DNA of 64,000 bases from positions 1,364,001 to 1,428,000 of the forward strand of contig NZ_CP038498.1 in NCBI RefSeq assembly GCF_012427845.1, given 5' to 3'. The notes under the pieces were generated by a model. The model saw only the letters and a list, made by a program, of their open reading frames with translations. It searched no databases and was not told the origin of the DNA. A program made the position numbers and the translations under genes. Of the stretch, positions 7,839 through 64,000 are shown piece by piece; positions within the stretch are counted from its first letter, which is position 1, and every line of letters begins with the position of its first letter. The DNA is from Pectobacterium punjabense (lineage in GTDB: Bacteria > Pseudomonadota > Gammaproteobacteria > Enterobacterales > Enterobacteriaceae).

Positions 7839-7861
7839 AAAAGGCTGCATCGCAGCCTTTT
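7839..7861 (-). terminator. Terminator-like hairpin between nrdA and nrdB
   Basis: A ten-base stem AAAAGGCTGC/GCAGCCTTTT with a three-base loop lies nine bases past the nrdA stop. On the transcript the 3' arm ends in UUUUA, so partial termination or RNA processing between nrdA and nrdB is possible. Whether it terminates cannot be told from sequence. Confidence 0.5.
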
Positions 7862-7870
7862 ATTATTGGC

Positions 7871-10156: not shown

Positions 10157-10199
10157 GTTGGGATTTACCTGTTGATGAAAATAAAAAAATATCCCCCGT

Positions 10200-10281
10200 T
10201 TATTCACAGAAATTCCTCTGTGACTAACTCTGTGGATAAATACTAGATATGGATATTTTTTGATAAATGGCTACTACATGG
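10200..10281 (-). promoter_or_regulatory. nrdA control region: DnaA boxes and possible NrdR boxes
   Basis: A perfect DnaA box TTATCCACA is on the minus strand at 10231-10239, and TTATTCACA, which fits TTATNCACA, is on the plus strand at 10200-10208. Two related half-palindromes, TACTAGATATGG (10241-10252) and TACTACATGG (10272-10281), start exactly 31 bp apart, three helical turns, as expected of paired NrdR boxes. The match to the NrdR consensus is only moderate. The rest of the 10157-10505 gap is AT-rich with no other recognisable element except the ubiG terminator. Confidence 0.55.
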
Positions 10282-10451
10282 TGAGTATTCTAGTCTGGAT
10301 TCGTTTGAGTACAAGGCTTGATTTTGGTGTTAATTTCAGGTTGCTGAAGCGTTGGTTTCTCGAAATCCTGATTTTGTAAGGGCTAAGAGGATGTCAATAT
10401 TCTGTAAAAAAAATAAGTCGCGTCCATTTTGTTGGTTTTTCAGATAAACCC

Positions 10452-10480
10452 AAAAAATTGCGCGGTGAAAAACCACGCAA
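10452..10480 (-). terminator. Intrinsic terminator of ubiG
   Basis: On the minus strand, arms TTGCGTGGT/ACCGCGCAA (one mismatch) are followed directly by TTTTTT. It lies about 25 bp after the ubiG stop. Confidence 0.75.
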
Positions 10481-10505
10481 CTTTTAAGAGTATTCTTAAT
10501 GGGTT

Positions 10506-11225
10506 CTATTTATCGTGGCGGGTATGAAGCATGTAGTTCACGTCTACGTTTGGACCGAGCTTAAAGTGGTCCGTCAACGGGTTGTAATGCAGCCCGGTGA
10601 TATGCTTTTCACGCAGCGGCGTACTGTCAACCCAGTGCATCAGCTCTGCTGGGCGAATGAATTTCTTAATATCGTGCGTGCCGCGTGGCACCATTTTTAA
10701 AACATACTCAGCGCCGATAACGGCCATCATCCACGCTTTTGCATTGCGGTTGATCGTGGAGAAAAACACGTGCCCGCCTGGCTTGACCAACTTAGCGCAA
10801 GCCTGCACCACGGAGTGCGGATCGGGAACGTGTTCCAGCATCTCCATGCAGGTGACCACATCGTAAAGGCCTGGGTGAGCATGAGCATGGGCTTCTACCG
10901 TTTCCTGCACGTAATCGACAGTGATACCGCTTTCCAGCGCATGTAAACGCGCAACGTCTAACGGCTCTGCGCCCATATCCAGCCCGGTGACGTCCGCACC
11001 TTCACGCGCCATGCTCTCGGCCAAAATGCCGCCGCCGCAGCCGACATCCAACACTTTCTTGCCGAACAGGCCTTCCGCACGCCGTGAAATATAGCCCAGA
11101 CGCAGCGGATTAATGCGGTGCAAGGGTTTGAATTCACCGTCTAAATCCCACCAGCGGGAGGCAATAGCCTCAAATTTGGCAATTTCCTGATGGTCAACGT
11201 TCGGGGTTTGATTTTCTACATTCAT
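10506..11225 (-). CDS. ubiG: Ubiquinone biosynthesis O-methyltransferase UbiG
   Basis: A 239-aa SAM-dependent methyltransferase that performs both O-methylations of ubiquinone synthesis. Motif I is visible as [19 protein letters not shown] (residues about 60-78). [17 protein letters not shown] motif follows, then a post-motif [12 protein letters not shown]. The N-terminal [23 protein letters not shown] is diagnostic of UbiG. It is divergent from gyrA, as in E. coli. The start ATG at 11223-11225 gives the family length. Confidence 0.96.
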
Positions 11226-11379
11226 GTGTCATCGCTGCCTTTCATCATCTTCTACTGCCGCGAGTATACCCCTTCATGTCGCAACGTGCAGCGCTGTCGC
11301 TTTTTTCTGTGGGATAAACATTCATGAGGAAAACAGTCTGTTCAGAGCGGAAGGGAGTTTCCCCCGAAACGGCGGTTTG

Positions 11380-11388
11380 TGATATAAT
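11380..11388 (+). promoter_or_regulatory. gyrA promoter, extended -10
   Basis: TGATATAAT (11380-11388) combines a perfect TATAAT with an upstream TG. No good -35 hexamer is found 16-18 bp upstream. A weak -35 is in keeping with the supercoiling-sensitive gyrase promoters known from E. coli. Confidence 0.65.
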
Positions 11389-11389
11389 T

Positions 11390-11438
11390 TTTCACCTTTT
11401 GAACAGTTCACCTTTCTGAACGGTTCACTTTTCTGAAC
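11390..11438. repeat. Three tandem mini-palindromes in the gyrA leader
   Basis: Three units with arms (G)TTCA/TGAAC and 5-6 bp spacers lie head to tail: 11390-11404, GTTCACCTTTCTGAAC at 11406-11421 and GTTCACTTTTCTGAAC at 11423-11438. Start-to-start spacing is 16 and 17 bp. They fall directly downstream of the -10 box, in the initially transcribed region or 5' leader. Confidence 0.8.
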
Positions 11439-11458
11439 ACGGGTAGATGCCTAAATAG

Positions 11459-14113
<2,655 letters not shown>

Positions 14114-14143
14114 GCCTTTTCCTTAAACTGGAATGAGCCGAGT

Positions 14144-14171
14144 AAGCCAGCGCGATGCGCTGGCTTTTTTT
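14144..14171 (+). terminator. gyrA intrinsic terminator
   Basis: Arms AAGCCAGCGC/GCGCTGGCTT around GAT are followed by a run of Ts, 30 bp past the gyrA stop. Confidence 0.92.
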
Positions 14172-14228
14172 ATCGACACTCGGTAGTGTATCAGCCAACT
14201 GGTTCTTCCATCATTCAACGGTATTCAC

Positions 14229-17084
14229 TTGAAATATCTCGCCTCATTCCATACCACATTAAAAGTCTCCCGCTATTTGTTCCGGGTTTTGGCGATCATG
14301 CTGTGGGTGTTAGGCGCGCTAATATCCGTTTTCTATATTACTAAAGTATTGAATGAAAAAGAGTCGGAGCTGCGGCAGGAATATAATCTTAGCTTTGATC
14401 AGTCGCAGGGATACATCCGCCATGCTGCGGATATTGTGCGCGAACTTCAGTATCTGGCGGCAAATCGTTTAGTGCTGGCGAGAGAAAGGGCTGAGCCGCC
14501 AACAGAAGAGGGGCCGGGTGTTTCTGTTTATGCGCTTACGCCCGGCGCAACCTGTTCCATGCAATATGGCGGGAATGCAGCGCTGCTCTCATTGAGTCAT
14601 TTTTTCAATGGCTGGCAGGATAATTTCTCTGCCGTCTACGATCTTAATCGGGTCTTTTTTGTCGGCGGCGATCGGCGCTGTATGGTTGATTTTGGCATTC
14701 GTAATCAGTCGCTTGACCGTGATAACTTGCTTAAAAATGTGCAGGATCGGTTTCAGGATCAGAAGAAAAATCGTACCCAAACTGGGCGTGATGAAACGCT
14801 TTATTGGATTACCCCCGCATCCATCCCCGATGTCGGCTATTTATATGCACTCACGCCGATCTATGTGGATAACAAGCTGGAAGTCATCATGGGGATTGAA
14901 CAGACGATTCGTCTGGATGACTTCGTCACCGTCAGCAAATTTCCGCTCAATGCCAAGTTGTTGGATCAATATAATCAGGTCGTTTTACAGTTTTCCGATG
15001 ACAGAGGGCTCTCTGCTTCCTCGGCAGAGGGTTATCCCTCCGATCATAACTATTTTGGTTATGCGAATGGCTATGATGAACTCATTCTGAAGAAGGCGCT
15101 GCCGCCTACTTCGTTCAGTATTGTGTACTCGCTGCCGCTGAAGGTGCTGTTGTCACATATCAGTGCATTGATGATCAATATGCTCGTGCTGAATATCCTT
15201 TCGGCAATTCTATTGTTTGTGTTGGCGCTGGTGTTTGAGCGAAAAATGCTGTTGCCTGCGGAAGTGAATGCCTTTCAGTTGGAAGAGAATGAGCAATTCA
15301 ACCGCAAGATCGTGGCGTCGGCACCGGTAGGCATTTGTATTCTGCGTATTAGTGACGGTACAAATATCCTCAGTAACGAACTGGCGCACAACTACCTTAA
15401 TTTACTCACCCACGAAGACCGATTGAGAATTACCCGCATTATTTGCGAGCAGCAGTCCAAGTTTGTGGATGTGATGACCAGCCGTAACCACCACCTGCAA
15501 ATCAGCTTTGTCCATTCGCGTTACCGCAATGAAAATGTGGCGATTTGTGTGCTGCTGGACGTTAGCGCGCGCGTCAAAATGGAAGAGTCGCTACAGGAAA
15601 TGGCGAATGCCGCCGAGCAGGCAAGCCAGTCTAAATCGATGTTCCTTGCCACTGTGAGCCATGAATTGCGCACGCCGCTTTATGGCATTATTGGCAATCT
15701 TGATTTGCTGCAAACCAAGGCGCTGCCGCAGGATGCTAACCGTTTGGTCTTGGCGATGAACAACTCTTCCTCACTGCTGCTGAAGATCATCAGCGATATC
15801 CTCGATTTTTCCAAGATTGAGTCGGAGCAGTTGAAGATAGAACCCTGTGAATTTGCACCGCATGAGGTGATCAGCCACATCACCAGTAACTATCTCCCGC
15901 TGGTGGTCAAAAAACGCCTGATGCTGTACTGCTTTATCGATCCTAATGTACCGGTCAGCCTGTTTGGCGATCCTGTTCGTTTACAGCAGGTGCTGTCTAA
16001 CCTGTTGAGTAACGCGATCAAGTTTACGGATACGGGCTGCATCATTTTTGAAGTTGGCTGCCGCGATGGTTATCTGGAATTTGTGGTGCGTGATACTGGT
16101 GTGGGTATTCAACCGCGTGAGGCAGTGAAGTTGTTTGATCCATTCTTCCAAGCGGGGAGTGGTGTACAGCGCCATTTTCAGGGTACAGGACTAGGGTTGG
16201 CCATTTGTGAGAAGCTGGTCAATCTGATGGATGGCGACATTACCATCGAGTCGGAACCGGGGCTCGGCAGCCTGTTTGGCGTCAGGATTCCGTTGTATAA
16301 AGCGCACTATGCTCCCGTGGCGATCAACGCCAGCCTGCAAGGGAAAATATGCTGGTTGAGGGTGCGCAATGCCCGGCTGGAGGCATATCTACTGACGTTG
16401 TTGCAGAACCAAGGCGTGCAGGCTGTGCGTTACCAAAATCAAACTGTGTCGCCCGATGATGTGATGATTAGTGATTACAGCCCGCCAGAAGATATTACTG
16501 TTCGGGCGCATATCGTGATAAGCGGCGCACATAACGGATCGGCACAGAAAGTGAGTGAGGGCCACTGGGTGCAGGGGACATCGACACCTCAACATCTGCC
16601 TGATTTGCTGGAGAAAATTTATCGCTCAGAAAGTGAAGAAAACACTCGCGAGGAGATTTCACCGCCGCTGACGCACTATGAGCGGGTTGAGAATGGCGAC
16701 ATTATGATTCTTGTCGTTGACGATCACCCTATCAACCGTCGATTGCTGGCCGATCAGTTGGGTTCTCTGGGGTATCAGGCGATGACGGCGAATGACGGCG
16801 TAGATGGGCTGAGCGTATTGAGTAAACACCACATTGATATCGTGCTGACGGACGTCAACATGCCGAATATGGATGGTTATTTATTCACCCAGCGCATGCG
16901 GGAGCAGGGGCTACGCTTCCCGGTCATTGGCGTGACGGCGAATGCATTGGCAGAGGAAAGAGAACGCTGCCTTGGGGCGGGGATGGATCACTGTTTGTCA
17001 AAACCGGTTACGCTGGATACATTGCAGCAGGCGCTGGCGTATTACAGTAACGTGGTGCGTCAGGCGAGAACATCCGAGAAGTGA
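14229..17084 (+). CDS. rcsC: Rcs phosphorelay hybrid sensor kinase RcsC
   Basis: A 951-aa inner-membrane hybrid kinase of the envelope-stress Rcs relay. TM1 (about 20-42) and TM2 (about 310-335) flank a periplasmic domain. The kinase H-box SHELRTPLYG has the phospho-His at residue 478, and N, G1 and G2 boxes follow (LSNAIKF, DTGVGI, GTGLGLAI). An ABL linker domain and a C-terminal receiver with DDHP and the phosphoacceptor in LTDVNMPN (Asp875) complete it. The start is TTG at 14229 (encoding MKYLASF), as I recall for E. coli. It is convergent to rcsB, the standard arrangement. It passes phosphate through RcsD to RcsB. Confidence 0.96.
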   Translation: MKYLASFHTTLKVSRYLFRVLAIMLWVLGALISVFYITKVLNEKESELRQEYNLSFDQSQGYIRHAADIVRELQYLAANRLVLARERAEPPTEEGPGVSVYALTPGATCSMQYGGNAALLSLSHFFNGWQDNFSAVYDLNRVFFVGGDRRCMVDFGIRNQSLDRDNLLKNVQDRFQDQKKNRTQTGRDETLYWITPASIPDVGYLYALTPIYVDNKLEVIMGIEQTIRLDDFVTVSKFPLNAKLLDQYNQVVLQFSDDRGLSASSAEGYPSDHNYFGYANGYDELILKKALPPTSFSIVYSLPLKVLLSHISALMINMLVLNILSAILLFVLALVFERKMLLPAEVNAFQLEENEQFNRKIVASAPVGICILRISDGTNILSNELAHNYLNLLTHEDRLRITRIICEQQSKFVDVMTSRNHHLQISFVHSRYRNENVAICVLLDVSARVKMEESLQEMANAAEQASQSKSMFLATVSHELRTPLYGIIGNLDLLQTKALPQDANRLVLAMNNSSSLLLKIISDILDFSKIESEQLKIEPCEFAPHEVISHITSNYLPLVVKKRLMLYCFIDPNVPVSLFGDPVRLQQVLSNLLSNAIKFTDTGCIIFEVGCRDGYLEFVVRDTGVGIQPREAVKLFDPFFQAGSGVQRHFQGTGLGLAICEKLVNLMDGDITIESEPGLGSLFGVRIPLYKAHYAPVAINASLQGKICWLRVRNARLEAYLLTLLQNQGVQAVRYQNQTVSPDDVMISDYSPPEDITVRAHIVISGAHNGSAQKVSEGHWVQGTSTPQHLPDLLEKIYRSESEENTREEISPPLTHYERVENGDIMILVVDDHPINRRLLADQLGSLGYQAMTANDGVDGLSVLSKHHIDIVLTDVNMPNMDGYLFTQRMREQGLRFPVIGVTANALAEERERCLGAGMDHCLSKPVTLDTLQQALAYYSNVVRQARTSEK

Positions 17085-52939: not shown

Positions 52940-54205
52940 TCAGTCCAACTGCGATTTGAAGGCGGGGGCGTGACGAAGCAATTCCCACAGCGTTGCCTGT
53001 AAGAGGATTTTCTGATTTTCGATCAGCTCAGGATAACGCTGATGAAATGCCGCTTCTTTAGCGGAAAACACCGGATTTTCCTGAAGCCACTGCTCACGTA
53101 ATTGGGTGATTTGTTCACGCGTTAGCTGCTTATTGGGCATGGCATCTTCCTGTTTCTCAAACCAGCGTTCGCGTTTGGCGGGCGTTGCGCGTTCTTCGGC
53201 ACTCCAGCCATCTTGAATTTGCAGTATCTGCGACAGCGTAAAGCCAAGCTGTACAGAGATACCTCGCCAGCTCTCCGCATCCGAGGGCGCAGGGGGCGGG
53301 GAAAGGCGGGACAATAGCGACGCCAGATTTTTTTCCAGCCCCTGCTCGCTGGTGGCCGCTTCTGTCAAATTAACGGTCTGCTGGTGCAATTCGGTCCAGG
53401 CGCTTTCGGCCACGCTTTCGCCAGCCAACAGCGGTGCAACGAGCTGTAACCACTGCTGGCGTAAGTCATTTAGCGTGCGGTCAGCCAGCCACTCGCTCCA
53501 TGGGTTCCCGTCGTTAGTTAACCAGTGGTGTAGCCATTGTAGGGCGATGCCGTCTACGGCTTTTCCTGGGGGAATCGCAGCAAAGAGTGCATCCACCTGC
53601 GCTGGCGTGGTGCAGGGAAGTTTTTCCAGCAGCAGGCCAAGGGCCGAGGGAAACCCGGTTAAACGTTCAAAGATGCGAATATCCGCGCTGTGCGCCAGCA
53701 CGGCGGAGATTGTGCCTTTATTCTCTTCCCAGTAAGGGGAATAGGCTTGTTGAATGTCGCCATTGACCGCGTGTTGGCGCAGGCGCTGGTGTAAAAAGTC
53801 GCGCAGCGACGGGTCGCCGTAAAACGTTCCCCACGCTACGTGGGCATCTGCCAAGGGCTGTGTCGTTTTTTGTATCGCAACCTGATGTGATTCCAGCCAG
53901 CCGCGTAGCTGCGCCAGCGTTTTTACGCCGATCTGTCGTGAGACTTCCTGCCCATTTTTAAACAACAGGAGAGTAGGAATGCCGCGCACGCCAAAGCGTC
54001 GCATGAACGCAGGGTATTGCTCCACATCCAGCTTGGCCACGGTCAAATTGTCTGGCGTGTTATCGGCGAGGGTATCCAGCAGAGGAGCCAGCGTTTTACA
54101 GGGCTGGCACCACGGGGCCCACAGATCAAGCAATACGGGCTTGTCGCTAGTCGCGAGTAGCGTATCCAGCGATGTGTCGCTGGTGGTAATAATGGCGTCG
54201 GACAT
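52940..54205 (-). CDS. Thioredoxin-domain protein with unrecognised C-terminal region
   Basis: A 421-aa protein without signal peptide. Residues 1-110 are a full thioredoxin fold with active site WCQPCK (Cys33, Cys36) and cis-proline GIPT near residue 77. The remaining 310 residues are mostly helical and I do not recognise them. They include DPSLRDFLHQRLRQH, several Trp-rich helices and a final segment LTREQITQLREQWL. Unlike CnoX the redox cysteines are intact and no TPR pattern is evident. The ATG has GGAG upstream. It is the third gene of the tldE-tldD operon, 48 bp after the TldD homologue. The last part may be a separate domain. Oxidoreductase or holdase activity on the proteases or their substrate is conjecture. 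Confidence 0.75.
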   Translation of the reverse strand: MSDAIITTSDTSLDTLLATSDKPVLLDLWAPWCQPCKTLAPLLDTLADNTPDNLTVAKLDVEQYPAFMRRFGVRGIPTLLLFKNGQEVSRQIGVKTLAQLRGWLESHQVAIQKTTQPLADAHVAWGTFYGDPSLRDFLHQRLRQHAVNGDIQQAYSPYWEENKGTISAVLAHSADIRIFERLTGFPSALGLLLEKLPCTTPAQVDALFAAIPPGKAVDGIALQWLHHWLTNDGNPWSEWLADRTLNDLRQQWLQLVAPLLAGESVAESAWTELHQQTVNLTEAATSEQGLEKNLASLLSRLSPPPAPSDAESWRGISVQLGFTLSQILQIQDGWSAEERATPAKRERWFEKQEDAMPNKQLTREQITQLREQWLQENPVFSAKEAAFHQRYPELIENQKILLQATLWELLRHAPAFKSQLD

Positions 54206-54253
54206 AGTGTCTCCATTAAAAAGAGTTAAAAATCAATAGAATTCAGACGAGGC

Positions 54254-55699
54254 TTACTGCGAACCCCCTACGGTCATATTGTCGATGCGCAGCGTTGGCT
54301 GGCCGACGCTGACGGGCAAGGTTTGTCCTTCTTTACTGCATACGATATTGCCGTCATCCAACGCCAGATCGTTGCCCACCATCGCGACGTGCAGCAGCGC
54401 TTCTGGCCCGTGACCAATCAGCGTCGCGCCTTTAACGGGACGGGTCACTTTGCCGTTCTCAATCAGGTAGGCCTCGGTCGTAGAAAAAACATATTTCCCA
54501 CTGCTGATATCAACCTGCCCGCCACCGAAGCCGACGGCATAGAGGCCATTTTTAACGGAGGCGATCACTTCTTCTGCGGGATATTGTCCTGCCAGCATGT
54601 AGGTGTTGGTCATTCGTGGCAGAGGTAGCGCGGAGTAGGAGGAACGGCGGGCGTTGCCCGTTAATGCGGTATTCATTAGTTTGGCGTTAAGACTGTCCTG
54701 TAAATAGCCGCGTAGTATGCCGTCCTCAATGAGCGTCGTGCATTGCGATGGCGTGCCTTCATCATCCACATGCAGCGAGCCCCGGAGAGTGGCGAGTGTG
54801 CCGTCATCGACGACGGTAATCCCCGGTGCGGCGACCCGTTCCCCTAACAAGTTGGAAAAGGCGGAACTGCCTTTGCGGTTAAAGTCGCCTTCCAACCCGT
54901 GTCCGATGGCTTCATGCAGCAGAATACCGGGTGAGCCTGCGCCGAGTACCACGCTGTACGTTCCTGCTGGCACTGGGCTCGCATCCAGATTATTCAATGC
55001 CTGATCGACTGCTCGGTTCACCCAGTGCGTGATCGCTTCGTCATCAAAGAAACCGTAGTCGAGACGTCTTCCTCCGCCGCTGCTTCCATTTTCTCTGCGG
55101 CCCTGCTGTTCCACGACGACGCTGATAAACAGATTAACCAACGGGCGAACGTCCGTCGCGAGCTTGCCGTCGTGGCGGGCGATGAGAATGGTTTCATGCG
55201 AAGCATTCAGGTAGGCCGTTACCTGTGTTACGCGCGGGTCGCGCGCGCGCGCCTGACGATCGATCGAAAACAGTAATTGCCGTTTATGCTCTTCAGTCAC
55301 GGCAAGCAGCGGGTTATTTGATGGATAGAGTGTGGTCGCGCCGTGCGGTAAAGAGGCGGGGAGCGCGACGCTAGCCGTTTGCCCCTGTCGGCTGATTTCC
55401 CTTACGGTGCTGGCGGCTTGCAGAATCGCCTGTGGGCTCAAGTCGTTGGTGTAGGAGAACGCGGTTTTCTCACCGCTGACGGCACGAACGCCAACCCCTT
55501 GATCGCGGCTGAATCCTGTCGGGCGCACGATACCGTTTTCGAGCTGCCAGCCTTCCTGCTGACGGCGCTGAAAATAGAGATCGGCATAGTCCACCTGACG
55601 CTGCATGATGTGATTCAGCGCGTGCGTTATCTCCGGTGTGCCCAGCGAGAATGCCGACAGTGCAGATGAGACTGACGTCCCAGTGGCATGTATGGTCAT
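54254..55699 (-). CDS. TldD-type metalloprotease subunit (paralogue)
   Basis: A 481-aa member of the TldD/PmbA family (peptidase U62). The zinc motif HEAIGHGLEGDF is at about residue 262, and the third ligand cysteine is in IVCSKEGQTLPV, as in E. coli TldD. LAADVRPL-like and PRMTNTYML segments are conserved. TldD with TldE forms a cytoplasmic heterodimer that cleaves unfolded peptides and matures or degrades RiPPs such as microcin B17 and CcdA. The gene is clearly diverged from housekeeping tldD, sits in a different context, and is paired with a TldE homologue 36 bp upstream. The ATG at 55699 is preferred (AGGA upstream); a TTG at 55726 would add nine residues. Confidence 0.88.
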   Translation of the reverse strand: MTIHATGTSVSSALSAFSLGTPEITHALNHIMQRQVDYADLYFQRRQQEGWQLENGIVRPTGFSRDQGVGVRAVSGEKTAFSYTNDLSPQAILQAASTVREISRQGQTASVALPASLPHGATTLYPSNNPLLAVTEEHKRQLLFSIDRQARARDPRVTQVTAYLNASHETILIARHDGKLATDVRPLVNLFISVVVEQQGRRENGSSGGGRRLDYGFFDDEAITHWVNRAVDQALNNLDASPVPAGTYSVVLGAGSPGILLHEAIGHGLEGDFNRKGSSAFSNLLGERVAAPGITVVDDGTLATLRGSLHVDDEGTPSQCTTLIEDGILRGYLQDSLNAKLMNTALTGNARRSSYSALPLPRMTNTYMLAGQYPAEEVIASVKNGLYAVGFGGGQVDISSGKYVFSTTEAYLIENGKVTRPVKGATLIGHGPEALLHVAMVGNDLALDDGNIVCSKEGQTLPVSVGQPTLRIDNMTVGGSQ

Positions 55700-55734
55700 G
55701 ATGGTGATCCTGTTTCTGTGACGCAATAGGGGAA

Positions 55735-57099
55735 TTACTGCCCGGCGATCTGCATCTCTTCAATCAATAAGGAGCCGCAGGAGAGGTTGCCCTGCGTGTG
55801 GATATCCGCACCGAGCGCGACGCATTGTTTAAGCAGCGTTTTTAGGTTGCCCGCAATGGTGATCTCGTCGACCGGGTACTGTATTTCGCCGTTTTCGACC
55901 CAAAAACCGGCAACGCCCTGAGAGTAGTCACCCGTCATTGGATTTAGCCCATGCCCCAGCAACGTGGTGACCAATAGCCCTGTCTGCATAGTGCGCAGTA
56001 GTGTCGGCAAGTCATCGTTAGCGTGACTTTGGCTGCTGCTGACAATCAGGTTATAGGCTCCGCCAGCGTGTCCAGTTGTCGTGAGCCCCAAGCGTCGAGC
56101 GCTGTAGCTGGAAAGAAAATAGCCTTGTGCAATGCCGTCGTGGATAACGTGACGTGGCGCGGCGGCGACACCTTCGGTATCAAAGCAGGCGCTGGCTAGT
56201 GCGCCGGGAATAAACGGATTTTCATACAGGCTCAGGTGTGGTGCGGTGATGGCCTCACCGAGGCATTGCCCCAGAAAGGACGTGGAACGATAAAGCGCCG
56301 CGCCACTGAGCGCATTGACCAGATGATGAATCAGGCTATGCGCGACGGGCGCTTCAAACAGTACCGGGCAGCGTCGAGTTGAGAGTTTACGAGCCTTTAA
56401 TTGTGCGATGGCACGTTGTGCGGCGGTGTGCCCGACCGTTTCCGGCGCTGCCAGGAATGCTGGCGATCGTCCCGTGGTGTGCCAGAATCCTTTCTGACGC
56501 GCCGTATTGTCACGGGCGATGGCCTGGCTCCACAGCGTGTGTAGCGAGGTGGGGTAGCCCGCGTAAAAACCAGCAGAGTTTGCCAGAATAAAGTCCCCCT
56601 GCTGTGAGGTAATCTCCGTACTCTCGCTATAGCTGTATTCGTGTGCGGCATTGGCGGCCTGTTCGGCACGTAATGCCAGCGACAGCGCTTGTCCGACGGT
56701 TAGCGCGTCGTTGTGGTGCAGCTTCAGATCGTAAATGTCTCGGGCGAAATACTGGGCTTCTGGCAGGCCGCTACACGCATCTTCATCTGCATATTTAGCC
56801 AGCGTACTGGCAGCGTCAACGGCGTCCTGCAAGGCTTCCTGACTAAACAAGGTGGATGACACGGTGCCTGAACGCTGACCAAAGTAAACCGTAACGGACA
56901 GAAACTGGCTCTGATTTTGCGTCAGCGTATCCATATCACCCTTTCTGACGCGCAGCGTGCGTCGGTTTCCCTGAGAAACGTTAACGACTGCCTGACTTGC
57001 GCCTTTTGCGGCAGCGAGATCCAGCACGTTTCCGGCCAGTGATTGGAGCGTGCCAGACTGCGGCGTAGCAAGAGTGAGAGATTCTTCAAGAGAAGGCAT
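55735..57099 (-). CDS. TldE/PmbA-type protease subunit (paralogue)
   Basis: A 454-aa homologue of TldE (PmbA), the non-catalytic partner of TldD. Strongly conserved C-terminal blocks are LSSYSARRLGLTTTGHAGG, GHGLNPMTGDYSQG, AGFWVENGEIQYPV and EITIAGNLK; the protein ends EEMQIAGQ like E. coli PmbA. It is the first gene of tldE-tldD-thioredoxin. A FecI-type promoter-like sequence lies 33-84 bp upstream. The Shine-Dalgarno of the ATG at 57099 is weak. Confidence 0.88.
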   Translation of the reverse strand: MPSLEESLTLATPQSGTLQSLAGNVLDLAAAKGASQAVVNVSQGNRRTLRVRKGDMDTLTQNQSQFLSVTVYFGQRSGTVSSTLFSQEALQDAVDAASTLAKYADEDACSGLPEAQYFARDIYDLKLHHNDALTVGQALSLALRAEQAANAAHEYSYSESTEITSQQGDFILANSAGFYAGYPTSLHTLWSQAIARDNTARQKGFWHTTGRSPAFLAAPETVGHTAAQRAIAQLKARKLSTRRCPVLFEAPVAHSLIHHLVNALSGAALYRSTSFLGQCLGEAITAPHLSLYENPFIPGALASACFDTEGVAAAPRHVIHDGIAQGYFLSSYSARRLGLTTTGHAGGAYNLIVSSSQSHANDDLPTLLRTMQTGLLVTTLLGHGLNPMTGDYSQGVAGFWVENGEIQYPVDEITIAGNLKTLLKQCVALGADIHTQGNLSCGSLLIEEMQIAGQ

Positions 57100-57131
57100 A
57101 TTGGGTATCCATGCGTAGCAGTGTTCTACTC

Positions 57132-57183
57132 ATGATGTGCAACGAAGACAGAAAAGCGTCAGTGCGAGGTGAGACTTTTTTAC
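57132..57183 (-). promoter_or_regulatory. FecI-type promoter candidate for the tldE operon
   Basis: On the minus strand: GTAAAAAAGTC, then TGACGCTTTTCT, then TCGTTGCACATCAT. It matches the copy in front of tonB at 36 of 52 positions without gaps, including 14 identical bases at the downstream end and 8 at the upstream end. Order and spacing recall the E. coli fecA promoter. Confidence 0.65.
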
Positions 57184-57212
57184 AAGGTGCTAAGAGGCAA
57201 GGGGGATGTTGT

Positions 57213-57248
57213 CCGCAGAAGCTGACGGCAGGTCGTCAGCTTCTGCGG
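57213..57248 (-). terminator. Stable hairpin after exbD
   Basis: A perfect 14-base stem CCGCAGAAGCTGAC/GTCAGCTTCTGCGG lies 12 bp past the exbD stop. No T-run follows on the minus strand, so it may protect the 3' end or reduce read-through into tldE rather than act as a standard terminator. Confidence 0.6.
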
Positions 57249-57259
57249 GGAAGGGAAAA

Positions 57260-57682
57260 TCAGGGGGCTTTGACCGGTTGCAGGACGAAATCGATTTTGC
57301 TCAGGCCACGCTGCTGAGCGCTGGTCATGACATAGGCCACTCGACCATACTCGACGGCCTGATCGGCAAACAGCCGTATATTCGGGTGTGTTCCTTCGGC
57401 TGAGGCCGCATCAAGTTTGGCAATCAGTTGCGCATCATCAACCGCTTCTTTATTCCAGTTAATTTGTCCGGTCGCGGTAATCGCGATATCCACGGCTTGC
57501 GGATCTTTCGTGATTTTCTCGACGCTGGCGCGCGGCAGTTCCACTTTGACGGCGTGATTAATGACCGGCAGGGTAATCATAAAGACGATCAGCAGCACCA
57601 GCATGACATCAATAAATGGCGTCATGTTGATATCGTTGAGCAGGGCGTCGTCCTGACTTTCAAACGGGGATGACATACTCAT
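57260..57682 (-). CDS. exbD: ExbD-family proton-channel protein
   Basis: A 140-aa TonB-complex component. A short cytoplasmic N-terminus is followed by one TM helix (about 22-42) with the proton-path aspartate in MTPFIDVMLVLLIVFMIT. The periplasmic domain ends VEYGRVAYVMTSAQQRGLSKIDFVL. GGAGG precedes the ATG at 57682. It follows exbB by 14 bp. This is a dedicated copy; such operons usually coexist with a housekeeping exb system elsewhere. Confidence 0.93.
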   Translation of the reverse strand: MSMSSPFESQDDALLNDINMTPFIDVMLVLLIVFMITLPVINHAVKVELPRASVEKITKDPQAVDIAITATGQINWNKEAVDDAQLIAKLDAASAEGTHPNIRLFADQAVEYGRVAYVMTSAQQRGLSKIDFVLQPVKAP

Positions 57683-57696
57683 GGCAGTGTTCCTCC

Positions 57697-58437
57697 TCAG
57701 GCTGAGCGTTCAACGGGATGAGATGATTGATGCGGGATCGCCGTGTTCAGATCGGCGAGACTGGTTTCAACACGTGCGCCAGTCAGCAGGTAAGCGTGCA
57801 GATCGTGGGCAAAGCGATTCATGGCATGCAGAACGACGCGGTTACGGCGGTTGATCGCGTTGAACCCTAATACGGCAGGGATTGCGACGAACAGGCCGAA
57901 CGCCGTCATGATCAAGGCTTCGCCAACAGGGCCAGCAACCTGTGCCAGATCGGGCTGGCCGATAGTGCTGATGGTTTGCAGCGCGTGGAAAATACCCCAG
58001 ACGGTGCCAAGCAGGCCGATAAACGGTGCGGTGCTGCCAATAGACGCCAGTGTTCCGAGGCCGGATTGCAGTTTTCCTGCGTTGGTGTCCAGCGTGTTGC
58101 TCAGGCCGCGTACCAGCCAGTCGCTGAGATCGACATGTCCGCCTAGCGTGGAGGAGAATTTATGCGGGTGTTTCAACAGTGCATGGCCTTCAACCACTAA
58201 ATCACGGAATGGGTTAAAATGCTGTTTACCAAACTGGCCGAGGCTATCTTGCAGGTTTGTGGCCTGCCAAAATGCCTGTCGGCTGTGCTGAACGCTCTTA
58301 TTCAGCGTCAATAACTGCCGCGCTTTGACCAAAATAACGGTCCATGACAACAGCGACATGATCAGCAAAATAATCGCTACCGAGTGGGTAACTGCATCGC
58401 CCTGCTGCCAGAAATGTTGAATATCTAACGTGTTCAT
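57697..58437 (-). CDS. exbB: ExbB-family proton-channel protein
   Basis: A 246-aa MotA/TolQ/ExbB-family inner-membrane protein. TM1 is near residue 20-40 (HSVAIILLIMSLLSWTVILVKA). TM2 and TM3 contain LASIGSTAPFIGLLGTVWGI and GEALIMTAFGLFVAIPAVLGFN, with the family Pro and Thr residues. It forms the proton channel that energises TonB. The ATG at 58437 follows GAGG. Middle gene of tonB-exbB-exbD. Confidence 0.93.
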   Translation of the reverse strand: MNTLDIQHFWQQGDAVTHSVAIILLIMSLLSWTVILVKARQLLTLNKSVQHSRQAFWQATNLQDSLGQFGKQHFNPFRDLVVEGHALLKHPHKFSSTLGGHVDLSDWLVRGLSNTLDTNAGKLQSGLGTLASIGSTAPFIGLLGTVWGIFHALQTISTIGQPDLAQVAGPVGEALIMTAFGLFVAIPAVLGFNAINRRNRVVLHAMNRFAHDLHAYLLTGARVETSLADLNTAIPHQSSHPVERSA

Positions 58438-58514
58438 GTGTGACCTCTTGTGCAATAGACTGATTCGGGCGTCAGTGAAACGGCGTGTGAGGCCATTTCG
58501 ACGCGAGTTCTGTG

Positions 58515-59390
58515 TTAACGAGCCAATCGGAAGTTGACGGGCTGAACGGTCATGACGGTGATAGCCTGTCCGTTTTCGCGGTAAGGTGTACAGCGTGCTT
58601 GCGCCACAGCACTCATGGCCGCCTCATCTAAGGCTTCAACTCCGCTGCTGCGGGCAATATCGTGCCGGATTAAGCGACCTTCCGGGCTGATGACCAGACG
58701 CACTAGCACATCCCCCTCTTGCTGGAGACGTTTAGCGCGGCGGGGGTAATCCGGCTGTGGCACGATGCAACCAACGGACGCCACCTGTTTGGGCTGCGCA
58801 CCGGGATGGTTCTGCATCATATTGCCTTTGCTGGTGCTGGTGAGCGCCCCTGCGGTGGCATCAGGTACGGCTGGCACGCTTTCTGGCGCTGGGGGCGCGG
58901 CAGGCTGACGCTCGGCCGTGGTTTTGGGGCGGACGGGCTGCGGTTTAACCACGGGTTTCACCGGCGGTTTCGGAACCTCTTTCTTAACGGGAGGCGGCGG
59001 GGTTTCTTGCCGTTCTACGATCGTTTTTTCCACGACGGGCGCGATTTCACGCTCGGCTTGTTCCGATGTGAGTACCGGCGGTTCCGGCGACAGTACGGGA
59101 ACGGGTTCCGGTTCTGGGGCTTCAACCATCGTGGCCTGAATGCTCACGCTGGCAGCCGGATTAAGCAGGTTGATCGGCTTATATTCGGTAGTGCGAGTGA
59201 TGAGCAAGGCTGCAACGCCAGCATGGATCAATGCCACCGCCAGAAAGCTGATTGCGATCCTTCTGGTTTCTCCCTGAGTAGATGCCCCGACGCTTAGCGA
59301 TGACAGCGTGGTGACGTTTTCATACCGTGCTGCGGGAGTCGCCTCAGCGCGCGCGTTTAACGATAGGTGTTGCACGGATGCCTGTTGCAC
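58515..59390 (-). CDS. tonB: TonB-family energy transducer
   Basis: A 291-aa TonB protein starting at GTG 59390 (AGGGG upstream). It has an unusually long cytoplasmic N-terminus of about 44 residues, a TM helix (about 45-64, IAISFLAVALIHAGVAALLI), a Pro/Glu- then Pro/Lys-rich periplasmic spacer (about 92-170) and a C-terminal TonB domain with PDYPRRAKRLQQEGDVLVRLVISP-type motif. Two cysteines in that domain (208 and 267, VGCIVP and QARCTPY) probably form a disulphide, as in some non-E. coli TonBs; E. coli TonB lacks them. First gene of tonB-exbB-exbD. Confidence 0.92.
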   Translation of the reverse strand: MQQASVQHLSLNARAEATPAARYENVTTLSSLSVGASTQGETRRIAISFLAVALIHAGVAALLITRTTEYKPINLLNPAASVSIQATMVEAPEPEPVPVLSPEPPVLTSEQAEREIAPVVEKTIVERQETPPPPVKKEVPKPPVKPVVKPQPVRPKTTAERQPAAPPAPESVPAVPDATAGALTSTSKGNMMQNHPGAQPKQVASVGCIVPQPDYPRRAKRLQQEGDVLVRLVISPEGRLIRHDIARSSGVEALDEAAMSAVAQARCTPYRENGQAITVMTVQPVNFRLAR

Positions 59391-59459
59391 GTTTTCCCCT
59401 ACTGCTCTTAGCTTACTGTGTTGGTGACGTCAGCCGACCAATCGTCATACTCTTTATTA

Positions 59460-59511
59460 ATGATGTGCAACGAGGTAGAAAAAGTGTCACCACATAACGT
59501 GAATTTTTTAC
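59460..59511 (-). promoter_or_regulatory. FecI-type promoter candidate for the tonB operon
   Basis: Minus strand: GTAAAAAATTC overlapping the fecR-like stop codon, then GTGACACTTTTT (59479-59490), then CTCGTTGCACATCAT (59460-59474). This lies 70-120 bp before the tonB GTG. It is 36/52 identical to the copy in front of the tldE operon. Confidence 0.65.
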
Positions 59512-60476
59512 CCGTGTCTGATAGCACGGATGTGAATCCAGTAATCTGTGGTGTGCACGATAGCGATAGGCATGGTTTGCGCGAGCGAATCCAGCGTGTA
59601 GTTAATGTCATTGAGGGGGAAATTTCCGCTGACGCGTAAATCAGCGATGGCAGGGTCGAGCCTGATGATGCCTGGCGTGTAGTCGCGTAGCGAATTAATC
59701 ACCGAAGCGAGTGAACGATCGCGGACTTCAAGTCGACCTTTCAGCCAGGCCATTTCTGATTCTGGCGTAATAGCGACCTGATAGAGCGTTGCGTCATCGA
59801 ACCATACGCCTTGACCCGCATTAAGGCGCAGGCTTTGCCCGGCTCGGTTGGTAATTTTGGCGATGTTATCCAGTACGCCGACGTGTACGCCGCCGCTTTC
59901 ATAGCGCACGTTCACATTGGCCTGGAGGGCGACAATATCACCCATTTGGGTCGCGATAACGAAGGGACGTTGGGTATCGGATCTGATTTCCGCGAAAATG
60001 CCCCCGGTGTGCAGGGAGACCTGACGTGCATGGCTCTCGGGTTGTACATTAACGTCGACGGCGGTACGCGCATTGAGCATGATCGCACTGCCGTCGCTGA
60101 GTGACACTTGCTGGCGCTGTGCTGTCGCGGTTTTCATATCAGACAGTAGTGGCGACAGCGGGTAGTGCTGATTGAGCAATAGACTGCTCAACGAGGCGAT
60201 AGCGACCATGCCTAATCCGTATTGCAACACTTTTCGCCGCCCCGACGGCGCTAACAACGCCTGACGAATCGGGTCGTTGGGTAACGCGGCGAGAAGCGGT
60301 TGAAATTGCCCCAACGTTTGCTCGATGCGCTGGCAGGCGCGCTCATGCAGGACGTTTTCATCTCGCCAATGGCGGTAATCGTCATAGTCGGTCTGCGTTG
60401 CTTCACCGGACCGCAGCAATACCATCCATTCAATTGCCTGCTCGGCAATTGGGTCATCCATGTGTCTTCTGGCCAT
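59508..60476 (-). CDS. FecR-type sigma regulator
   Basis: A 322-aa cell-surface-signalling regulator. The N-terminal cytoplasmic DUF4880 domain (PIAEQAIEWMVLLRSGE, DYRHWRDENVLHERACQRIEQ) contacts the sigma factor. One TM helix (about 83-101, GLGMVAIASLSSLLLN) precedes the periplasmic FecR domain (TAVDVNVQPESHARQVSLHTGGIF). The C-terminal part resembles the E. coli FecR segment that binds the receptor (LRVSGNFPLNDINYTLDSLAQTMPI). ATG 60476 has AGGTG upstream; GTG 60485 is possible. It starts 9 bp after the sigma gene. Confidence 0.9.
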   Translation of the reverse strand: MARRHMDDPIAEQAIEWMVLLRSGEATQTDYDDYRHWRDENVLHERACQRIEQTLGQFQPLLAALPNDPIRQALLAPSGRRKVLQYGLGMVAIASLSSLLLNQHYPLSPLLSDMKTATAQRQQVSLSDGSAIMLNARTAVDVNVQPESHARQVSLHTGGIFAEIRSDTQRPFVIATQMGDIVALQANVNVRYESGGVHVGVLDNIAKITNRAGQSLRLNAGQGVWFDDATLYQVAITPESEMAWLKGRLEVRDRSLASVINSLRDYTPGIIRLDPAIADLRVSGNFPLNDINYTLDSLAQTMPIAIVHTTDYWIHIRAIRHG

Positions 60477-60485
60477 GCGGTTCAC

Positions 60486-61007
60486 CTATAAATCACTGCT
60501 GTCTTGTGTTGCCAGGTAGCAGTTGGTGAGTGCTTTGGCGATATATTTTCTTACCATGCTGACGGAAACATCAAGCTTTTCGGCAATGTCGGCGTAGGTC
60601 ATCCCATCAAGCTGGCTGTACAAAAAAGCCCGCCGTGCATTGGTAGACAGTCCGTCCAAGGCTTGATCGATAGTCAACAGTGCTTCTATTAACAGTTGCT
60701 GATCTTCCGGCGAGGGATGGTGAAATTCTGGCTTACTTGCCAGTGCCGTGAGATAGGCTTTTTCCAGATCGCGCCGACGCCAGTTTTCGTACAACACACG
60801 TTTAGCCAGCGTGGTCAGCATCGCTCGTGGCTCCTGCACGCTGGCGAGATCGGGTAGCGAGGCTAAACGTAAAAATGCTTCTGAGGCAACGTCTTCCGCT
60901 TCACAGCCGTAAGCAATACGGCGGCGTAATCGGTCCGTTAACCAGCGATAATCGCTGCGAAAAATAAGCGACAGTAAGTCGGTTTTTTTAACAGACTCGG
61001 TATACAT
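60486..61007 (-). CDS. FecI-type ECF sigma factor
   Basis: A 173-aa sigma-70-family extracytoplasmic-function factor. Region 2 (about 10-80: LTDRLRRRIAYGCEAEDVASEAFLRLA, RAMLTTLAKRVLYENWRRR) and region 4 (about 112-165: ALDGLSTNARRAFLYSQLDGMTYADIAEKLDVSVSMVRKYIAKAL) are present, with the FecI-type S-VRKYIAKA recognition helix. AGGA precedes the ATG. It is the first gene of the sigma-antisigma pair and is divergent from the TonB-dependent receptor. Expected targets are the three similar promoter sequences in this region. Confidence 0.93.
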   Translation of the reverse strand: MYTESVKKTDLLSLIFRSDYRWLTDRLRRRIAYGCEAEDVASEAFLRLASLPDLASVQEPRAMLTTLAKRVLYENWRRRDLEKAYLTALASKPEFHHPSPEDQQLLIEALLTIDQALDGLSTNARRAFLYSQLDGMTYADIAEKLDVSVSMVRKYIAKALTNCYLATQDSSDL

Positions 61008-61493
61008 GGGGAATCCTCAGCAACATAAACCACAACCTAAACAGACAATCTTTGAACCGGGATACCCCGAGGCCGCCAATACAGGGAAATTCGTTATTTC
61101 CGAATAAGAGCATTCTGTCTTGCGTTTTTAAGACAAAACACGGAAGAGTCAAACAACGATTTTCTTATATGTTTATTTAAAATTGTTATGTTGCTAAGAA
61201 ATTTGTAAAAAAAGCCAGTTGGGGAGCGTGGAAGAGCAGAGTGAAGGAGAGAAATCGAGGTTCCAGACAGATTTATCCTTGTCTGACAGGCGATTATTCT
61301 TCTTCCCGAATCAGGATGAATAGGTTGGTTTTAGTAGAAAAAGGTATCCGGCGTTTTTTCAATCAGGCTGATTATTGTTAGATGAAATTTTATTCATAAA
61401 AAAAAATTATTGCTGTCACTTTTTCATCGTCATTGCACAACTCATACGAAGACCAATAAAAACTGATTTGTTGAAGCAATTGACGAGGGAAAT
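61008..61493. promoter_or_regulatory. Divergent sigma/receptor control region with third FecI-type promoter
   Basis: In this 486-bp region TGTCACTTTTTC (61414-61425) and TCATTGCACAACTCAT (61429-61444) match the -10 and downstream blocks of the tonB and tldE copies, preceded by an A-tract (61398-61406). They lie about 50-80 bp before the receptor ATG. No convincing Fur box was seen. On the minus strand TTGACT near 61152 might be a -35 for the sigma gene, without a good -10. Nothing else is recognisable. Confidence 0.6.
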
Positions 61494-63872
61494 ATGAAAA
61501 AACGAGATGGTATCTCTCCCGCTCTGGGGCTGGGTTTTAAGCAACGCCTGCTTCTCACCAAAATGTTGACGATCAATACCGCTCTATTTGTCGGTGCGGC
61601 GACCTTACCGATTGCCGCCTATGCGGCGGGTGAGAATGACACGATTGCCTTTTCTATTCCGGCCGGTGACCTGCAAAAAGGATTGCTGGCAATCGCCAAC
61701 CAAAGTCAGCAGACCCTCTCATTTAATCCTGCCTTGGTGGCGAATTATCAAAGCGCCGCGCTGAAGGGCAATTATTCGACGCGTCAGGCTATTTTGCGCT
61801 TATTACAGGGGACGCCGTTATTATTGACGACCACCGATAACGGTACGCTGACCATTATTTCTTCCCGCGCCAACGATGCGGAAGTGGCGCAGGCCAGCGA
61901 TAACGCGCTGCCAGCGATTACTGTCAACGCCGGCAGCGAAGATGAAACGGTATTGAACCCTGGCACTTCGTCGTCAGCCTTACGTACCAGCACCTCGTTA
62001 CAGCAAACGGCGCAGTCGGTTCAGGTCATCAGTAACAAACTGATTACGGAACGTCAGGCGACGTCACTGGAGGATGTACTGAAAAACTCGGGTAGCGTTG
62101 TCGCCGTTAAGTCAAACCGTGGTGAACCGACCTACTGGATACGCGGCTATGCGGTTACCTCTGGGGCAACGGATGGGCTATCCGGGTCCAGCAATGCAGG
62201 GATTGGCCGTGGCACTGAGATCGAGGGGGTTGAACGCGTCGAAGTGCTGAAAGGGCCACAGTCCGTGCTGGCGGGCAGCAGCTCGGCGGCGGGGACGATC
62301 AACGTGGTGCGTAAAAAACCGGTGACGGAACCGCTACGTCGAGTGAAAGTGGAAACGGCAAGCTACGGCGAGATAAAAACGTCGTTCGATTTAGGCGATG
62401 CCATTACCGAGGACAAGTCCTGGAGCTATCGCCTCAATGCATCCAGCATGAAGTCACGCAATGCCTTTCCTGACTTTAATGGCAATCACAGTGACTATTT
62501 AGCACCTGCGTTTACGTGGAAAAATGACAACACCACGCTGACGTTTGGGGCGGAAACCAGCCAGAACCGGCGTTCTGGCCCCGCGGGCACCGTGTATCTC
62601 AACGGCGCTATCCAGCAGTTGCCTAAATACCGTCTTGGTGACAAAGACGATCATAATAAAACCAAGACCACCAATACGTATTATGAGCTGGAGCAAAAGC
62701 TCGTTAACGATTGGACATTCAACAGCAAAGCGGGCTTTCAGAGTACCGCGTCTCAGATGAAGCTGAATGAAACGCTGGCCATCGCACCTAATGGAGCTAA
62801 AGTCAGCCACCCGCTGGCCTATAAATCTACCAATCAGACATTTAGCCTGCAAAATGATATTCGGGGGAAAATTGAGACGGGGCCTGTCACCCAGACCGTA
62901 TTGTTCGGCCATGACTATAAGCATGAACGTTATGCCAGCTACGATAATGATTTTATTCTGTTGAATAATGGGAATATCTATAACTCGGATTCTCTCTCTT
63001 TCCCTGGCATCGGTGAACCAAGCTATCGCTCTTACACAACGAAATTAATCCAGAGCGGTTTCCTGTTTCAGGATCAGATCGATGTGTTTGATCGCCTGCA
63101 TTTCCAGCTCTCGGTTAAACGCTCGACGTGGAATAACACGTATCTGGTCGGCGCAATGCCATCGGCCTTTACCACCAGCAAATGGATACCTAACTATGGC
63201 GTCAGCTTCGATATCACGCCAGATGTGACAATTTATGCCAATTTGCTGAACAGTTTTAGCGGTAATGCCGCGGTTACGCGTACCGGCATCCAACTGCCAC
63301 CGACCACCGGGCAATCGAAGGAAGCGGGGCTGAAATTTAGCCTGCTGGAAGACGATCTGACGCTAACAACGGCGGTATTCAATATTGAGCAAAATAACCT
63401 GAGGGTGACGGATGCTAACGGCTTTCCGATCGCCTCCACCGGGAGAAAAAGCGAAGGGTTTGATGTCGATTTGAATGGTACGCTTTTGCCGGGATGGGAT
63501 GTTTCAGCCAGTTATACCTACTCCACCAGCAAAGACCCAGGTACGGTGACATATCGGACCAACACGCCGCGCCATACCGCCAATATTTGGACGTCTTATG
63601 AGGTTCAGTCCGGTCGCTATCAGGGCTTTGGTGCCTCTGCCGGGATTAGCGGAACATCAAAAACCGAGAACGGGGATACGCGTCAAACCTTCACCATTGG
63701 AAGCCAGGCCTCCACGGACGTCACCGTCTTTTATCGTCAGCCAATCTGGTCAGTCACCTTTGGTGCCAATAACGTCTTCGATCGCGATATCTACTACACC
63801 AGCACGACACCGTTGTATATCGGTATGAAAGAAGGGCGGACATGGCGTCTCACCGGAACGTACTCGTTCTGA
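61494..63872 (+). CDS. TonB-dependent transducer/receptor with STN signalling domain
   Basis: A 792-aa outer-membrane receptor. A long signal peptide ends near AYA-A (residue 44). The STN signalling domain (about 49-125; IAFSIPAGDLQKGLLAIANQSQQTLSF) is followed by a TonB-box-like ALPAITVNA (139-147), the plug (RGEPTYWIRGY, GVERVEVLKGPQSVLAGSSSAAGTINVV) and a 22-strand barrel ending in TWRLTGTYSF with terminal Phe. Layout is that of ferric-siderophore transducers (FecA/FpvA group). GAGGG precedes the ATG. It signals through the adjacent FecR/FecI-type pair. The ligand is unknown; no periplasmic binding protein or ABC permease is adjacent. Confidence 0.93.
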   Translation: MKKRDGISPALGLGFKQRLLLTKMLTINTALFVGAATLPIAAYAAGENDTIAFSIPAGDLQKGLLAIANQSQQTLSFNPALVANYQSAALKGNYSTRQAILRLLQGTPLLLTTTDNGTLTIISSRANDAEVAQASDNALPAITVNAGSEDETVLNPGTSSSALRTSTSLQQTAQSVQVISNKLITERQATSLEDVLKNSGSVVAVKSNRGEPTYWIRGYAVTSGATDGLSGSSNAGIGRGTEIEGVERVEVLKGPQSVLAGSSSAAGTINVVRKKPVTEPLRRVKVETASYGEIKTSFDLGDAITEDKSWSYRLNASSMKSRNAFPDFNGNHSDYLAPAFTWKNDNTTLTFGAETSQNRRSGPAGTVYLNGAIQQLPKYRLGDKDDHNKTKTTNTYYELEQKLVNDWTFNSKAGFQSTASQMKLNETLAIAPNGAKVSHPLAYKSTNQTFSLQNDIRGKIETGPVTQTVLFGHDYKHERYASYDNDFILLNNGNIYNSDSLSFPGIGEPSYRSYTTKLIQSGFLFQDQIDVFDRLHFQLSVKRSTWNNTYLVGAMPSAFTTSKWIPNYGVSFDITPDVTIYANLLNSFSGNAAVTRTGIQLPPTTGQSKEAGLKFSLLEDDLTLTTAVFNIEQNNLRVTDANGFPIASTGRKSEGFDVDLNGTLLPGWDVSASYTYSTSKDPGTVTYRTNTPRHTANIWTSYEVQSGRYQGFGASAGISGTSKTENGDTRQTFTIGSQASTDVTVFYRQPIWSVTFGANNVFDRDIYYTSTTPLYIGMKEGRTWRLTGTYSF

Positions 63873-64000
63873 TAACCCGTCTAGCGGATGGCCTGCATGG
63901 TCATCCAGACGAATTCGCAGGTAGAAACGGCGCATGAGCGTGAAAGAAGCGAGTACGACAAGACCGAGCATCGGCCAGATTCTGGTGCCCTATTGGCTGA
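63873..64000. other. Right-edge sequence, unassigned
   Basis: Minus-strand frames contain a hydrophobic stretch (MLGLVVLASFTLMRRFYLRIR, 63909-63971) that could be the end of a membrane protein coming from the right, but a stop codon lies at the window edge in that frame and the frame runs into the receptor gene. It may be frameshifted or non-coding. I assign no gene. Confidence 0.3.

Follow-up and report, generated by a model that had tools for sequence, protein, structure and literature searches.

A surface-signalling regulon of Pectobacterium punjabense with a probable role in polypeptide import and cytoplasmic digestion

Comparison with described import systems

The Fus cluster of Pectobacterium (FusA-FusB-FusC-FusD), which serves ferredoxin uptake, encodes a TonB-dependent receptor together with its own TonB-like protein, a YddA-related fused ATP-binding cassette (ABC) transporter and a peptidase (PMC5095587). 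Fus and the YddA-YddB-PqqL system have in common a receptor, an M16 protease in the periplasm and an ABC transporter of YddA type; in the latter system, one E. coli operon encodes the transporter (YddA), the receptor (YddB) and the peptidase (PqqL) (PMC5095587, PMC6793856). Here we describe a cluster from a 64,000-nt stretch of DNA (hereafter the window) of the 4.79 Mb genome of Pectobacterium punjabense (contig NZ_CP038498.1, positions 1,364,001 to 1,428,000), in which a FecI/FecR-type regulator pair, a TonB-dependent receptor, TonB-ExbB-ExbD, a YddA-type transporter, a second pair of TldD/TldE peptidase proteins (TldD/E) and a thioredoxin (Trx) fusion protein, TrxC, are encoded together. With a probability of about 0.68 we read it as a regulon under surface signalling whose products take a putative polypeptide ligand through both membranes and break it down in the cytoplasm.

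The cluster resembles Fus in its fused ABC transporter of YddA/FusD type, encoded beside the receptor, and in its dedicated TonB-like energiser, provided by tonB-exbB-exbD. The transporter gene, yddA, begins 61 bases behind the receptor gene and runs across the window edge on the forward strand (63934-64000 in the window, L005:934-2712 as a whole; L005 is a stretch running past the window edge, and L005:934 equals position 63934). Its open reading frame (ORF) encodes 592 amino acids (aa) with the Pfam domains ABC_membrane_2, SbmA_BacA and ABC_tran; an SbmA-like membrane domain with an attached nucleotide-binding domain is shared with the SbmA/BacA/YddA/BclA clade. The nearest solved relative of the protein is 6tqe, which we take to be the Rv1819c transporter. 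An earlier note on the window had drawn the parallel to Fus, which is closer than stated there, since the ABC transporter is a relative of FusD and YddA (31% identity to the FusD candidate of the same genome). A Fus-like locus is likewise present in this genome (L191, assigned by gene order and Pfam, FusA itself not being compared). The genome also carries a second FecI/FecR-receptor-YddA-type locus (L190:8252-14945), with no peptidase inside, beside a gene for an F5/8 type C domain protein.

The differences from Fus concern above all the receptor and the peptidase. A PDB search by sequence did not recover a FusA homology for the receptor, which is of siderophore type. FusC has been described as an M16 protease of the periplasm, and its candidate in this genome has a leader-like N terminus, whereas the cluster encodes TldD/E, with no M16 gene in the stretch examined. 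Furthermore, the present system adds the Trx fusion, ExbBD and FecI/FecR control. Because neither receptor nor peptidase is of the Fus kind, we do not class the cluster as a member of Fus; it is best read as working like the protease-associated import of Fus and PqqL, but with cytoplasmic peptidases that can replace one another and a receptor of siderophore type. The peptidase PqqL likewise differs in being a periplasmic M16 protein, and neither TldD/E nor a Trx fusion or a sigma pair is known to us from the YddA-YddB-PqqL system. In the Fus model it is the iron-sulphur cluster, not the peptide, that crosses the inner membrane (PMC13253070), whereas in the present system, if the peptidases are cytoplasmic, the peptide itself must do so.

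Individual parts of the cluster have further counterparts. The ECF (extracytoplasmic function) sigma factor, the FecR-type regulator and the STN-bearing receptor correspond to FecI/FecR, FoxI/FoxR and PupI/PupR, but the regulon here contains peptidases, a Trx fusion and a peptide-type ABC transporter. Astexin-type lasso-peptide isopeptidase loci combine a TonB receptor with FecI/FecR, and thus likewise possess a sigma-regulated receptor beside a peptidase acting on a peptide ligand; the peptidases here, however, are TldD/E or M16, and the annotated genes of the cluster include no lasso precursor or cyclase, though no search aimed at these was made. Both subunits, the HExxxH motif and the distal Cys are shared with TldD/E (PmbA) of E. 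coli, which acts on microcin B17 and CcdA (PMC5810440), yet here a second copy lies behind a receptor-linked promoter, and we propose breakdown of an imported peptide rather than maturation. Other proteases beside FusA homologues are noted in PMC6793856, whose main text never uses the terms TldD, thioredoxin or FecI; a 2024 review of TonB-dependent uptake (PMC11658791) mentions neither TldD nor SbmA or YddA, and we found no description of TldD/E with TonB/sigma genes and Trx in the open-licence paper library searched.

An M16 peptidase in place of TldD/E

The Trx fusion is present in 16 of 25 Pectobacterium genomes, in 12 of which tldE2 is intact and in one broken. In two further genomes, G673 and G665, tldE2-tldD2 is absent between exbD and trxC, and an M16 peptidase of 904 aa with the HxxEH motif is present instead, its gene starting 33 bases behind yddA. 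Identities to the window proteins in these two genomes are 81-84% for the receptor, 84-85% for YddA and 76% for TrxC, and both genomes nest among those with TldD/E in a tree built from the receptor, YddA and FecI sequences. Conversely, no M16 gene was found in the stretch examined behind yddA in any of the 13 TldD/E-bearing Pectobacterium genomes. One genome, G684, retains a remnant consisting of trxC and scraps only.

The M16-type version is not confined to Pectobacterium. Clusters of Pantoea coffeiphila, Marinomonas spartinae and a Klebsiella plasmid contain the Trx fusion, two M16 peptidases and two YddA-type transporters together with receptor, ExbB, ExbD and FecI, and TonB was identified in the Pantoea and Klebsiella clusters; no TldD/E was found in the stretches examined of the three. 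The Klebsiella copy (L175, NZ_CP055068.1) is carried by a plasmid of K. pneumoniae, surrounded by insertion sequences and close to sul1. Among 27 non-remnant clusters, 22 have TldD/E only and five M16 only, while none has both or neither in the stretches examined. Each genome enters this count once (L022-L027 and L107-L108 are second views of counted genomes, and the remnant G684 is excluded), and genomes of one genus are not independent.

TldD/E and M16 peptidases share little except the cutting of polypeptides, and no other observation argues as strongly for a peptide ligand as their replacement of one another; a swap inside one genus comes close to a natural genetic experiment on the shared job. 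By inspection the M16 proteins lack an obvious leader, unlike the FusC candidate of the P. punjabense genome, although hydropathy numbers separate them weakly. Both peptidase types appear to lack a leader and thus to be cytoplasmic.

Shared promoters and distribution of the regulon

A 26-base motif, TGWCRCWTTT-N8-RTTGCACA, is common to the three transcription units of the window and matches exactly before the receptor unit (61414-61439, forward strand), before tonB-exbB-exbD (59464-59489, reverse strand) and before tldE2-tldD2-trxC (57136-57161, reverse strand). The related promoter-like sequences that the earlier note had seen before all three units thus correspond to sigma-type promoter sites at 61414, 59489 and 57161. 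No other exact match exists in the whole genome, where 0.002 would be expected from base composition; three further sites have two mismatches, and a control with the reversed motif pattern yields four sites at up to two mismatches.

The receptor, of the siderophore-receptor type, is encoded on the forward strand (61494-63872; Pfam STN, Plug and barrel domains, TIGR01783 above cut-off), and its nearest solved relatives are FoxA, CntO, FhuA and FpvA in a PDB sequence search with 30 matches at E ≤ 0.001. All other genes wholly within the window lie on the reverse strand: the fecI-type ECF sigma factor (60486-61007; Pfam and NCBIfam), the fecR-type anti-sigma regulator (59508-60485; FecR and DUF4880), tonB (58515-59390; TonB_C), exbB of the TolQ/ExbB family (57697-58455; MotA_ExbB), exbD (57260-57682; ExbD), tldE2 for the TldE/PmbA partner (55735-57099; three PmbA_TldD Pfam domains), tldD2 for the TldD metallopeptidase (54254-55726, with the first ATG at 55699; NCBIfam TldD 595 bits, cut-off 513) and trxC (52940-54205). 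ORFs, Pfam and NCBIfam bear out the nine genes and families listed in the earlier note, to which two members beyond the window edge are added, the ABC transporter gene behind the receptor and a convergently oriented subtilase autotransporter gene some 2 kb past yddA.

tldD2 and tldE2 are second copies: the genome has four PmbA_TldD_1st matches, the two elsewhere being TldD (HEAVGH) and TldE. Motif alignment places both HEAIGH and the distal Cys in TldD2; in E. coli TldD, residues of the HExxxH region and the distal cysteine are the metal ligands (PMC5810440). TldE2 has no HExxxH, as expected of a TldD partner, and scores 400 bits with NCBIfam PmbA, below the cut-off of 438. The pair has the sequence features of TldD/E and is predicted to form an active heterodimer acting on unfolded peptides. 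TrxC, which is 98% identical to a protein recorded for P. punjabense, consists of a Trx fold with a CxxC motif (CQPC; Pfam and NCBIfam), without a leader by inspection, and an all-helical C-terminal domain of about 300 aa that has no Pfam or NCBIfam match. Its AlphaFold2 model has a pLDDT (predicted local distance difference test) of 88.6 for the whole protein and 92.9 for the C-terminal domain, and none of 167 Foldseek matches to this domain reached E ≤ 0.001. No relative of the domain was recognised in the libraries searched, and it is a marker for such systems. Trx-fusion paralogues without CxxC or Trx domain, considered below, still keep the C-terminal domain, and in L033 more partial copies lie between.

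The autotransporter (1009 aa, L005:4663-7692, reverse strand, outside the window) unites a Peptidase_S8 domain with an autotransporter barrel, and its start is lipobox-like by inspection. One of the three two-mismatch sites of the genome lies upstream of its gene. The gene is full-length or nearly so in 14 of 15 non-remnant Pectobacterium clusters, with the motif upstream in all 14 (exact in six, one mismatch in five, two mismatches in three, namely P. punjabense, G681 and G665), and the next best place in each stretch has five or six mismatches; the motif pattern was set before this gene was examined. In the remnant genome G684 a partial autotransporter gene is left, with no motif upstream of that part. 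Promoters of the autotransporter type with the gene missing were seen at L142:8646 (reverse strand) in G114 and L201:6201 (reverse strand) in G151. Between yddA and the autotransporter, L005:2818-4392 (reverse strand) encodes two 123-aa proteins and an AAA ATPase with a weak PtuA-like match.

Beyond Pectobacterium, in which the tldE-tldD-trx unit carries the same motif, a slightly looser pattern precedes receptor and tonB in all five loci of other Enterobacterales genera. In Pseudomonas the motif precedes the receptor in both loci, and additionally tonB and yddA in P. syringae GR12-2; no copy was found with the looser pattern upstream of tonB in L029. Both Rhodocyclaceae loci have it before the receptor in the variant RTTTCACA, and that of Dactylopiibacterium (L033) has an extra copy behind fecR. 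A site in L033, at 2175, precedes an S9/DPPIV-like peptidase (L033:2175-4515) with a leader-like start, which matches the Atxe2 lasso-peptide isopeptidase family weakly (34.5 bits, cut-off 400). Away from the cluster, the motif precedes a MacA-MacB-NodT export operon in two other Enterobacterales genera (L143:7276-11896 and L144:2163-7037; exact in G087, one mismatch in G112), the families being assigned on the G087 copy with NCBIfam and PDB.

The gene set itself recurs in five other Enterobacterales genera, in Pseudomonas and in Rhodocyclaceae. A scan of named genomes for the Trx fusion kept 80 loci, 68 of which match little beyond the thioredoxin domain and 12 over most of the length: six from Pectobacterium, two of the M16 type, two from Pseudomonas and two from Rhodocyclaceae. 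P. rhizoryzae possesses all ten members (FecI, FecR, TonB, ExbB, ExbD, YddA, TrxC, TldE, TldD and the receptor). P. syringae GR12-2 (L028) has all except FecR, and its receptor is without an STN match; FecR and the receptor STN are here a matched loss (cluster at 4295-16598), and genes for RAQPRD and DUF2976 proteins behind the cluster suggest an integrative conjugative element. Both Rhodocyclaceae loci show every member that their stretches could show (the L032 stretch breaks off within exbB, that of L033 just behind fecR), the receptor of L033 reading as two overlapping frames. Gene order is changed in the Pseudomonas and Rhodocyclaceae loci, and identities to the window proteins are about 30-69%.

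A sample of 295 genomes of the family contains the Trx fusion in eight (E ≤ 1e-30) and the second-type TldE in the same eight (E ≤ 1e-165), a count that very divergent stray copies could escape because the profile used for TldE derives from members of the clusters. TldE and Trx lie inside a TonB/sigma cluster in all eight, so the gene-neighbourhood comparison proposed earlier as a check has not refuted the link between receptor, TldD/E and Trx, and the shared promoter in Pectobacterium points the same way. Five of the eight belong to other genera; in each of their loci all ten members occur together, with receptor-yddA-trxC-tldE-tldD in one direction and fecI-fecR-tonB-exbB-exbD in the opposite one. 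That housekeeping-type TldD/E-Trx genes merely happen to adjoin a siderophore system is hardly credible: TldD2 alone is not distinctive in sequence, but besides the co-occurrence in 8 of 295 genomes and the common promoter, the set is kept in Enterobacterales, Pseudomonas and Rhodocyclaceae despite rearranged order, and one branch separates 13 cluster TldEs from 30 others in a tree (support 99/97).

Proposed mechanism and competing explanations

In the mechanism that we propose, a ligand would bind the STN-bearing receptor, whereupon FecR would release FecI and FecI would transcribe the motif-bearing units; the shared promoters can be read directly from the DNA, and activation of FecI by the ligand is presumed. 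The subtilase autotransporter would trim a protein outside the cell, and the receptor, powered by its own TonB-ExbB-ExbD, would bring the resulting peptide into the periplasm. From there the SbmA/BacA/YddA-type transporter may move it into the cytoplasm, a role suggested by its family: BclA peptide transporters belong to the YddA clade, from which SbmA is believed to have arisen (PMC13316013). The Trx fusion might then reduce the disulfides of the peptide, permitting it to unfold, and TldD/E, or in some relatives the leaderless M16 peptidase, would degrade it. E. coli TldD/E admits chains only in unfolded form and from the N terminus (PMC5810440); a disulfide-bonded peptide would therefore need prior reduction, which a co-regulated thioredoxin fits. 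A siderophore-type receptor does not exclude a peptide ligand, because FpvA and FpvB carry the thiopeptide thiostrepton (PMC10128021). The peptide-like ligand suggested in the earlier note thus gains from the YddA-type transporter, the M16 replacement and the exported peptidases behind the motif.

Several observations weigh against polypeptide import and digestion. The nearest relatives of the receptor are siderophore receptors, and FusA is not among its 30 PDB sequence matches. A putative role in drug export has been reported for E. coli YddA (PMC9728188), and the inward transport of peptide by the YddA-type protein is putative, being deduced from its family. TldD2 stands no nearer to the TldDs of clusters outside Pectobacterium (48-52% identity) than to its genome's canonical TldD (54%). 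Second Trx copies without CxxC occur in both Rhodocyclaceae (L032:7277-8545, L033:12358-13620), and a P. syringae paralogue of the Trx fusion (L028:6473-7507) has no Trx domain by Pfam; since paralogues have lost either CxxC or the whole domain, reduction is not the sole role of this family. No motif copy was found in L030, L031 and L175, the M16-type clusters from Pantoea, Marinomonas and Klebsiella. The autotransporter promoter of P. punjabense is two mismatches away from the motif, and G151 has kept the other members without the autotransporter, whose promoter remains with one mismatch. Finally, a model of pure import leaves the MacA-MacB-NodT export operon unexplained, as the same motif precedes it.

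The main rival explanation, which we regard as unlikely, is metallophore uptake: a peptidic siderophore or chelator, foreign or the cell's own, would be brought into the cytoplasm, where TldD/E or M16 would cut its peptide part, releasing metal or recycling amino acids, with Trx aiding reduction. For iron carriers, sigma circuits linked to a receptor have been described (PMC11637429). The receptor is a TIGR01783 member closest to FoxA, CntO, FhuA and FpvA, pyochelin and pyoverdine receptors are the closest to that of the M16-type cluster from Pantoea, and uptake of a metallophore would accommodate the MacA-MacB-NodT operon with the motif in two genomes. The layout of that operon is the one of the pyoverdine pump PvdRT-OpmQ. 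On the other hand, the genes common to the clusters include no siderophore-type ABC transporter or binding protein, and a subtilase autotransporter and an S9 peptidase stand behind the motif. In addition, the DNA upstream of the sigma gene, examined in 15 stretches, in no case has a Fur-like box that beats shuffled sequences (smallest fraction of shuffles as good, 0.125), a weak argument since it uses a single consensus.

Alternatively, the system could serve defence or counter-sensing, in that an antimicrobial peptide of a competitor or host, or a peptide antibiotic, is sensed, imported and destroyed or re-exported. SbmA/BacA-type transporters bring antimicrobial peptides in (PMC13316013), thiostrepton enters by FpvA and FpvB (PMC10128021) and E. 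coli TldD/E degrades unfolded peptides (PMC5810440). The MacAB-type exporter behind the motif in two genomes would suit this explanation, as would the patchy spread of the cluster (16 of 25 genomes in the genus), its setting in P. syringae, which resembles an integrative conjugative element, and the plasmid-borne M16-type cluster. Nevertheless, we consider it improbable: dedicated energised transporters are an expensive way to bring in a toxin, the genome already has a canonical TldD/E, and the secreted peptidases fit feeding at least equally well.

The import and cytoplasmic digestion of a polypeptide can be extended, tentatively and at somewhat less than even odds, to a line of protein piracy under one sigma factor, in which the subtilase would cut a disulfide-rich protein of a host or competitor, the receptor and the SbmA-type transporter would import the piece whole, Trx would unfold it, and TldD/E or M16 would consume it. 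If so, TldD/E would have a catabolic role, and protease-associated import would comprise a second class with digestion in the cytoplasm. TldD/E is widespread, but most of what is known about it concerns peptide maturation; the present copy, under sigma-linked control and associated with an importer, suggests that the enzyme may also serve to eat imported peptides. For orphan siderophore-type receptors, the search for ligands could accordingly include peptide substrates and not chelators alone.

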